Part shown: piece after piece, positions 35,322 to 36,794 of the stretch
How positions within the stretch are numbered: the first letter of the stretch is position 1
How the letters are laid out: every line of letters begins with the position of its first letter
Assembly (NCBI RefSeq): GCF_940143175.1
Contig: NZ_OW659496.1
Location: 1,736,001 to 1,800,000 of the forward strand
Source: Erysipelothrix amsterdamensis
Lineage (GTDB): Bacteria; Bacillota_I; Bacilli_A; Erysipelotrichales; Erysipelotrichaceae
DNA: 64,000 bases
Reading direction: 5' to 3'
Translations under genes and position numbers: made by a program
Notes under the pieces: model-generated
Database searches by the model: none
What the model was told of the DNA's origin: nothing
Seen by the model: the letters and a program-made list of their open reading frames with translations, nothing else

Positions 35322-35825
35322 ATGCATGGTGATGTACGACGCACACAGATTATTACAAAATTGTTCGATTCGGAACATGCAATTAGCGCAAATCAATTCG
35401 CAAAGACATTTAATGTATCACGACAAATAATTGTCGGGGATATTGCACTTTTAAGGGCACAAGGACACGACATTATTGCGACAGGTAAAGGATATCTTAT
35501 AAATCGCATTGATGAGAACATGAAAATCTATACACTTGCGATGCAACACAGTCATTACGATACACAAAAAGAATTAGAAATTTTCATTAAACACCACGCA
35601 CATGTTTTGGATGTCACCGTTGAACATCCCGTCTATGGTTCCCTTACCGGTCAATTGGATATTCGAACTTATGAAGATATTACACTTTTTATGAACCAAA
35701 AACCTGAACTTCTCGCTTCACTTACAAATGGTATCCACCTTCATCGCATTGCAATTTCTAAAGAGCACTACCCCGAACTCATGATTGATTTAAAACAACA
35801 TGAATTTCTCTATGAAAGTAACTAA
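35322..35825 (+). CDS. niaR: NiaR-type transcription repressor of niacin uptake
   Basis: A 167-residue regulator with an N-terminal HTH (ISANQFAKTFNVSRQIIVGD) and a C-terminal 3H domain whose spaced histidines (KHHAHVLDVTVEHPV, then HLHRI) bind the ligand metal or nicotinate. In Firmicutes this family (YrxA/NiaR) represses NAD precursor genes when niacin is plentiful. Its target, the niacin transporter gene niaX, lies immediately downstream, with two palindromic operators between. The start has an AGAGGTGAT site. The length fits the family. Confidence 0.93.
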   Translation: MHGDVRRTQIITKLFDSEHAISANQFAKTFNVSRQIIVGDIALLRAQGHDIIATGKGYLINRIDENMKIYTLAMQHSHYDTQKELEIFIKHHAHVLDVTVEHPVYGSLTGQLDIRTYEDITLFMNQKPELLASLTNGIHLHRIAISKEHYPELMIDLKQHEFLYESN

Positions 35826-35840
35826 GGTGTCTTGACACCT
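35825..35840. promoter_or_regulatory. NiaR operator 1
   Basis: AGGTGTCTTGACACCT is a near-perfect palindrome, matching the NiaR consensus as I remember it (core GGTGTCtaGACACC). It overlaps the stop of niaR and the -35 box of niaX. Followed by a T-run, it could also act as a weak terminator for niaR. Confidence 0.85.
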
Positions 35841-35860
35841 TTTTCTTTTACCACTACAAT
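35832..35860 (+). promoter_or_regulatory. Sigma-A promoter of niaX
   Basis: TTGACA and TACAAT are separated by 17 bases. The -35 box is part of operator 1, and operator 2 begins six bases after the -10 box, so NiaR would block RNA polymerase from both sides. Confidence 0.85.
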
Positions 35861-35866
35861 ACCTCT

Positions 35867-35882
35867 AGGTGTCAAGACACTT
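35867..35882. promoter_or_regulatory. NiaR operator 2
   Basis: AGGTGTCAAGACACTT, the same palindromic core with two mismatches at the end. It lies between the -10 box and the ribosome binding site of niaX. The spacing between the centres is about 42 bases, four helical turns. Confidence 0.85.
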
Positions 35883-35893
35883 TGGAGGATCTC

Positions 35894-36403
35894 ATGAAAT
35901 CTGTTCGTAATCTTAGTATCACTGCTCTACTCATCGCACTCGGAATTACTATACCTATGTTTATGCCTAAAATCATCATACCGCCGGCATCCTATACACT
36001 CGCAAGTCATGTTCCATTATTCGTTTCAATGTTTATATCACCTGCTGTTGCACTTGCTGTAGCTTTGGGGACAGGAGTAGGTTTTTTAATCTCTACGCCA
36101 TTTATCGTTGCGGTCCGTGCTTTCTCACACTGTGTGTTTGCATTACTAGGATCACTTTATATACAAAAAAATCCAGACCTTATCAAGCATCGAAGAAAAT
36201 GCATCAGTTTTAATATTATTATTGGTTTCATTCATGCAACCGTTGAATGTCTCGCCGTTACCCCATTCTTTTTTACTCAAACCCCAACTTCTGGTTCTTA
36301 CTTTACAATTGTCTTTTTGGCGGTTGGTGTCGGTGGTTTTATCCACAGTCTTATCGACTTTTCAATTGCATCCACAATTTTAAAACGTATTCCTTTAAAA
36401 TAA
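35894..36403 (+). CDS. niaX: NiaX, niacin-specific S component of an ECF transporter
   Basis: A 169-residue membrane protein with about five to six helices (NLSITALLIALGITIPMFMP and MFISPAVALAVALGTGVGFL). It matches the NiaX family, the substrate-binding subunit that pairs with the shared ECF energy module encoded elsewhere. Its context confirms the substrate: niaR upstream and NiaR operators in its promoter. A TTG at 35882 opens a longer frame, but the ATG at 35894 has GGAGG five bases upstream. Uptake of niacin suits an organism that cannot make NAD from scratch, a likely but unproven reading. Confidence 0.92.
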   Translation: MKSVRNLSITALLIALGITIPMFMPKIIIPPASYTLASHVPLFVSMFISPAVALAVALGTGVGFLISTPFIVAVRAFSHCVFALLGSLYIQKNPDLIKHRRKCISFNIIIGFIHATVECLAVTPFFFTQTPTSGSYFTIVFLAVGVGGFIHSLIDFSIASTILKRIPLK

Positions 36404-36440: not shown

Positions 36441-36794
36441 ATGAAACCATTATTTATCTACTATCCTAAATGTTCTACATGTAAACGTGCCGTAAAATAT
36501 TTAGAAGAAAACAACATCGATGTTGTTTATCGCGACATGATGCTTGAGAATCCAACGAAAGCAGAATTAAAAGAATGGCTCCAAATTAGTGGCTTACCCA
36601 TCAAACGATTCTTTAATACATCCGGTATCGTTTATCGCGAAATGAAGTTGAAGGATAAACTTCCGGAAATGAGTGATGACGAAGCACTTGAATTACTCTC
36701 AACAACAGGTCGTTTAGTCCGAAGACCTATGTTAATTGGCGATCACGGTGTATTTGTTGGCTTTCATGAAGAGATGTATGAGACATTAAAATAA
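36441..36794 (+). CDS. ArsC/Spx-family thioredoxin-fold protein
   Basis: A 117-residue protein with the family fold: the N-terminal CSTC motif in YYPKCSTCKRAVKYLEEN and the C-terminal LVRRPMLIGDHGVFVGF stretch. This group covers arsenate reductases, Spx and YffB/MgsR-like regulators; Spx proper lacks this exact pattern, and an oxidoreductase is more likely. It starts after a GGGAGG site and its stop overlaps the yaaA start by one base, so the two probably share a transcript. Confidence 0.85.
   Translation: MKPLFIYYPKCSTCKRAVKYLEENNIDVVYRDMMLENPTKAELKEWLQISGLPIKRFFNTSGIVYREMKLKDKLPEMSDDEALELLSTTGRLVRRPMLIGDHGVFVGFHEEMYETLK

Follow-up and report, generated by a model that had tools for sequence, protein, structure and literature searches.

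The niaR-niaX locus and its predicted products

The window examined here, a 64,000-nt stretch of the Erysipelothrix amsterdamensis genome (NZ_OW659496.1, positions 1,736,001 to 1,800,000), contains a putative niacin repressor gene, niaR, followed at a distance of 68 nt by niaX, a putative niacin uptake gene. Two NiaR-type palindromes (here op1 and op2), a promoter with 11 of 12 consensus matches (TTGACA-17-TACAAT), and the ribosome binding site of niaX all lie in or at the edge of this gap (Table 1). An earlier note on this DNA had described the same crowded layout, and its account was confirmed base for base. The centers of op1 and op2 are 42 bp apart in the window. An Spx/ArsC-like gene (window 36441-36794) lies directly 3' of niaX.

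Table 1. Features of the niaR-niaX region, in window coordinates.
Feature	Position	Strand	Remarks
niaR	35322..35825	+	Predicted niacin-responsive repressor, HTH_11 + 3H domain; stop TAA 35823-35825
op1, NiaR-type palindrome AAGGTGTCTTGACACCTT	35824..35841	+	Overlaps niaR stop codon; may double as hairpin of putative niaR terminator
op1 inner stretch GGTGTCTTGACACC	35826-35839		
-35 box TTGACA, niaX promoter	35832..35837	+	Right half of op1
T-rich tract, -35/-10 spacer	35840..35849	+	Putative U-tract of niaR terminator
-10 box TACAAT, niaX promoter	35855..35860	+	17-nt spacer from -35
op2, NiaR-type palindrome GGTGTCAAGACAC	35868..35880	+	At predicted niaX transcription start
RBS GGAGG of niaX	35884..35888	+	From sequence
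niaX, ATG 35894	35894..36403	+	Predicted niacin ECF-transporter S component

The niaR product combines an N-terminal HTH_11 domain (Pfam, 1.8e-13) with a C-terminal 3H domain (4e-20), the architecture that defines the NiaR family, and phmmer matched it to proteins with solved structures (chains 7cv0/7cv2, 9ebr, and 1j5y; E values of 1e-26 to 1.6e-25). The conserved metal/niacin His and Glu motifs, the roles of which in NiaR are described in PMC7713382, are present in an alignment to 7cv0 made by motif rather than by residue-by-residue numbering. The NiaX sequence from the window matched no Pfam or NCBIfam model that would place it in a curated family, nor any PDB sequence; among its 29 aligned relatives, 4 matched PF12822 and 12 matched TIGR04518 at E values up to 0.1. 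Its AlphaFold model was of good confidence (pLDDT 89.8), and the ten best Foldseek PDB matches were ECF S components or ECF transporter chains, led by TmRibU (TM 0.72, probability 1.00, E 3.4e-3, with none at E ≤0.001). The modeled NiaX is thus predicted to have the fold of ECF S components. The name niaX was based on the earlier note, the gene neighborhood, and the operator. Part of niaX is 67.7% identical to a stretch of a 24-kb Enterococcus faecium plasmid (NZ_CP040874.1) that is annotated as a hypothetical protein.

NadA was detected in none of the 13 Erysipelothrix genomes (12 of 14 control genomes were positive), and nicotinate phosphoribosyltransferase was found in all 13. Niacin salvage is therefore probably a main source of NAD in these bacteria, so that a gene for niacin uptake matters.

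Two palindromes, one of them shared with other genera

The cores of op1 and op2 both correspond to the type I NiaR box, TGT-N4-ACA (PMC7713382), placed in the promoter of a niacin gene. The 1.909-Mb genome has only three exact copies of GTGTCNNGACAC, of which two are in this gap. Over the 13 Erysipelothrix genomes, 23 of the 30 places with the exact sequence are in the niaR-niaX gap, and the center is A/T-only in all 23, with C or G in all 7 others. A matrix derived from 22 distinct niaX operators, all from genera other than Erysipelothrix, ranked op2 (18.9) first and op1 (16.1) second among 63,983 window positions; the third-best match (11.3, window 35412-35429) was inside the niaR coding sequence. 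Erysipelothrix sites scored from 5.9 (op2 of G005) to 21.8 on this matrix, lower than most of the operators from which it was built (14.9 to 30.6). The count of the 12-mer in the window with one mismatch allowed was not unusual: 2 were found where a mean of 1.13 was expected, and 31 of 100 shuffles reached 2. The weight of the operator assignment therefore rests on exactness, matrix scores, and conservation.

Both niaR and niaX were present in 12 of the 13 Erysipelothrix genomes and were adjacent in all 12, with the niaR stop codon 50 to 73 nt before niaX; the remaining genome (G009, 84% complete) had no match to either gene and carried the NAPRTase gene. All 12 pairs, representing 11 distinct gap sequences, have both palindromes, and in all 12 the -35 box is contained in op1, although these genomes are related and the counts are not independent. 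The comparison with relatives thus upheld two statements of the earlier note, namely that the gap holds NiaR-type operators and that the first of them includes the -35 box. The promoter spacer is 17 nt in 11 genomes and 16 nt in one. The sequence of op1 is AGGTGTCTTGACACCT in 11 genomes and GGGTGTCTTGACACCT, with one changed base, in G004. Its center is always TT, as the TTGACA hexamer requires, and that of op2 is AA in 9 genomes, TT in 2, and AT in 1. The TGA that ends niaR in G008 itself forms part of the hexamer. At the level of sequence, the fusion of a predicted operator with the -35 box in op1 is solid.

How far this layout extends was examined in 315 genomes of the order. A pattern search was positive in 8, all Erysipelothrix, and missed 4 of the 12 known Erysipelothrix pairs, so this search was not sensitive. 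Matches to niaX were found in 48 of the 315 genomes, 36 of them outside Erysipelothrix, and 35 of these 36 loci were read (L049 of G036, a weak match at 30% identity, was left out; the identical upstream sequences L036 = L082 and L010 = L012 were all kept in the counts). A NiaR box lies just after the -10 box in 32 of the 35 loci (31 by script and L039 by eye; L037, L038, and L044 have none there), and no operator-quality site was found on the -35 box in any of the 35. This distribution indicates that op2 is the predicted operator shared with other genera and that op1 is, among the loci read, an addition of Erysipelothrix; from it we infer that op2 is older than op1. The earlier note missed that op2 is the operator common to other genera, that op1 is confined to Erysipelothrix among the loci read, and that niaX is the one NiaR target recognizable in this genome.

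Two non-Erysipelothrix loci, L079 and L084, were flagged for boxes on the -35 by an expression for the core only. Both were rejected, with matrix scores of -0.1 and 0.4 compared with at least 14.9 for the building set.

The distance between the centers of op1 and op2 varies across the 12 genomes: 42 bp in six, 43 in two, 45 in one, 34 in two, and 35 in one. The center of op2 likewise falls anywhere from 6 to 17 nt after the end of the -10 box. The earlier note had seen in the 42-bp distance, about four helical turns, a sign that two NiaR dimers bind cooperatively. The distances of eight genomes (42 or 43 bp) would suit such binding; the other four depart from it, no single helical phase runs through the range of 34 to 45 bp, and most loci of other genera make do with op2 alone. 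The four-turn argument is thus unsupported, and we regard cooperative binding to op1 and op2 as improbable.

Another reading is that only one of the palindromes, most likely op2, works as an operator in vivo and that op1 has been retained because it serves as -35 box and terminator. A precedent exists at the Streptococcus pneumoniae nadC promoter, where R2 alone of the sites R1 and R2 is functional (PMC5343564), and the position of op2 is the one common to other genera. On the other hand, op1 keeps its full 16-bp palindrome better than op2 (11 of 12 identical), including left-half bases that the -35 box does not need, and we therefore consider a single working operator rather unlikely.

Other candidate NiaR targets were sought among all 20 further sites in the genome that differ from GTGTCNNGACAC at no more than one position. 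Of these, 19 are in open frames (frames of at least 80 aa were used for 13 sites and of at least 100 aa for 7), and the last is formally in a doubtful 85-aa frame beside tRNA-Cys; none was retained. In this genome no TGT-N4-ACA box was present in the 1.7 kb spanning the NAPRTase gene start, and in all 12 genomes that core was absent from the 200 nt before niaR, which gives no sign of NiaR autoregulation through it. Because the near-matches are in frames or beside a tRNA gene and no box precedes niaR, NiaR looks like a local repressor with niaX as its sole recognizable target in this genome, as far as near-consensus sites are concerned.

A perfect palindrome, GTGTCGCGACAC, is located just upstream of tRNA-Cys at G000:C1:1693134-1693145 (L100:835-846) and again in L116, among seven clustered tRNA genes, a context that is alike in G000 and G005. 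Its center is not NiaR-like, and in G001 the same 12-mer is inside a coding frame (L117).

The op1 palindrome at the end of niaR

A simple terminator scan reported the hairpin at 35824-35841 on the + strand with the tail TTTCTTTTAC; for this palindrome on the - strand it gave a poorer tail, AGTTACTTTC. Since NiaR operators are palindromic anyway, the hairpin by itself is no evidence for a terminator; in op1, a T-tract directly follows the stem. By a d'Aubenton-type score (d'Aubenton-Carafa), op1 reached 0 or above in 9 of the 12 genomes. It is borderline in the window (0.3), strong-looking in three genomes with two sequences (23.5 in G001 and G002, which are identical here, and 30.4 in G007), and negative in three (G012, -3.5; G010, -4.8; G008, -9.0). 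By the same score, op2 gave no candidate or fell below -60 in all 12. In the window, scores of at least 0 were obtained at 14 of 59 gene ends, crudely called as the ends of ORFs with 100 aa or more, versus 0 of 140 control stretches within genes; op1 was the lowest of these 14, with the others at 5.2 to 37.1. Within 120 nt of the end of niaR, no candidate was found that scored better than op1, which is the only one in the gap.

The spacer between the -35 and -10 boxes provided a second line of evidence. A T-rich spacer, in which 7 or more of 8 consecutive bases are T, was found in all 12 Erysipelothrix niaX promoters versus none of 87 distinct TTGACA-17-TATAAT spacers (from 108 matches) in the genus (Fisher p about 1e-15, kinship not corrected). 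In G001/G002 and G007, where the stem of op1 is longer, the T-run starts correspondingly later, at the base of the stem; in G001/G002 the stem extension is seen in op2 too.

These results bear on a reading in which op1 has no role beyond those of operator and -35 box, the T-run is simply part of a normal niaX promoter, and transcription of niaR either reads through into niaX or is stopped by bound NiaR acting as a roadblock. The contrast between the niaX spacers and others of the genus, the way the start of the T-run follows the end of the stem, and the lack of any better terminator candidate in the 120 nt after niaR all argue against it. In its favor are the borderline score of op1 in the window and the negative scores in G008, G010, and G012, and also T-rich spacers in other genera at loci where a hairpin with its own T-tract lies separately upstream (scores above 0 in L074, L078, and L080, -3.3 in L081, and by eye in L079). 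Such spacers mean that the T-run may be inherited promoter sequence. We judge this reading unlikely.

The loci of other genera also suggest where a niaR terminator tends to be placed. Among the 18 in which niaX is adjacent to niaR, 10 have a hairpin and T-tract scoring at least 0 before or at the -35 box, 4 score between -12 and 0, and 4 (L043, L079, L083, and L089) have worse or nothing, although a visible hairpin in L079 lies outside the range scanned for terminators. The T-tract starts 7 to 13 nt before the -35 box in 9 of the 18. T-rich spacers by the threshold of at least 7 in 8 nt were found in 8 of the 18 niaR-adjacent and 2 of 13 non-adjacent niaX promoters. With at least 6 in 8 nt, they track niaR adjacency outside the genus (14/18 versus 3/13, p 0.004, kinship not corrected). 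In L077 there is no niaR in the locus, which a contig end may have cut off.

Loci of other genera in which a terminator separates niaR from niaX (such as L041, L074, and L080) resemble Erysipelothrix in having the same gene pair and an operator just after the -10 box, and in them the T-tract of the hairpin starts 7-8 nt before the -35 box. Terminator and operator are separate at such loci of other genera, whereas op1 would merge them in Erysipelothrix; the terminator there often abuts the -35 box, and op1 occupies that very place. Upstream of niaX in L033 and L034, which belong to one genus and are two of the 10 loci scoring at least 0, the hairpin TGTCAGGCTGAGAAAAGCTTGACA is followed by a T-tract and has the -35 box in its 3' arm. 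It is not a NiaR box (matrix score -19.9), so an overlap of terminator and -35 box seems to exist there without an operator.

A further arrangement was noticed in L043 (G024), in which a long palindrome upstream of niaX carries two TGT-N4-ACA boxes 12 bp apart. By eye, the -35 box of this locus falls within the loop of a hairpin that might terminate niaR; the score (-55.6) did not confirm this hairpin.

Taken together, the idea that op1 and its T-run end the niaR transcript, already put forward in the earlier note, is reasonably supported, short of proof. The T-rich spacers in all 12 genomes and scores of at least 0 in 9 of them speak for it, and the value of 0.3 in the window and the three negative genomes count against it. 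Op1 probably serves as the niaR terminator, at about two in three.

A different role for the RNA was also considered, in which a read-through niaR-niaX transcript forms a long op1:op2 hairpin that touches the niaX ribosome site and silences niaX. The segment at 35815-35896 of the window does fold as a 19-bp op1:op2 hairpin (-29.5 kcal/mol), and op1 is likewise paired with op2 in the fold of lowest energy for 10 of the 12 genomes. However, two palindromes of one consensus pair automatically, so that the fold follows from the palindromes and is no evidence of a switch; moreover, separate hairpins are formed in G003 and G008, and op1 alone would form first during transcription. Such a switch seems very improbable.

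A compact form of NiaR control

Our preferred reading, to which we give a probability of roughly 0.66, is that NiaR represses a promoter in the niaR-niaX gap and that op1 merges an operator, the -35 box of this promoter, and the niaR terminator. In S. pneumoniae, NiaR represses niaX when niacin is present, and in Bacillus halodurans niacin and metal strengthen the binding of NiaR to DNA (PMC5343564, PMC7713382). By extension from NiaR elsewhere, with plentiful niacin the Erysipelothrix repressor would occupy both palindromes, op2 where transcription is predicted to start and op1 across the -35 box, turning niaX off. From the positions of the sites, NiaR on op2 would block open complex formation or promoter escape, and NiaR on op1 would block recognition of the -35 box. 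When niacin is scarce, NiaR would leave and RNA polymerase could take the TTGACA-17-TACAAT promoter. In the niaR transcript, the op1 hairpin and the U-rich tract would probably act as an intrinsic terminator, and if op1 does end this transcript, niaX would be insulated from the niaR promoter, which itself has no NiaR box.

The closest known counterparts are PniaX and PnadC of S. pneumoniae, in the type I NiaR/YrxA regulon (PMC5343564, PMC7713382). They are alike in having a 3H/HTH repressor and a TGT-N4-ACA box at the promoter of a niacin uptake gene, and PnadC has two predicted NiaR sites as well. Unlike in S. pneumoniae, the second palindrome of Erysipelothrix embraces the -35 box and sits on the niaR stop codon, niaX is the sole recognizable target in the window's genome, and the gap has no separate niaR terminator. 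Operator palindromes that also form RNA hairpins have a parallel in CIRCE, the HrcA operator, which does so in the 5' leader of the gene that it controls; the op1 hairpin would instead end the RNA of the upstream gene.

Among the matches listed in a literature search covering titles and the beginnings of abstracts, neither an operator doubling as a terminator at niaX nor NiaR in Erysipelothrix was found. Related reports concern engineered terminator-promoter elements in yeast (PMC10298055), the HTH regulator CcpA, which binds RNA near terminators and is a distant lead (PMC9130240), and short intergenic regions, where the parts examined do not describe an overlap of this kind (PMC3636130). The locus appears to represent known NiaR control in a new compact layout, with a predicted repressor site, part of a promoter, and probably the stop signal of niaR in one 16-base palindrome.

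A more speculative extension, which we hold to be a long shot, is that op1 is read in two chemical forms: niacin-bound NiaR and the sigma factor would recognize it as DNA, and RNA polymerase would meet it as RNA on its way out of niaR, with NiaR as a roadblock exactly at the terminator making it niacin-tuned without a riboswitch. If true, plentiful niacin would tighten termination at the end of niaR, and scarce niacin would let more transcription leak into niaX.

For annotation, these loci advise caution, as operator palindromes with T-runs may be called terminators, and vice versa. For Erysipelothrix and its order, they suggest that one palindrome can unite a repressor site with a promoter hexamer and probably also with the terminator of the upstream gene, in a form that is kept across a genus, and the intermediate-looking layouts in neighboring genera would make this fusion traceable.
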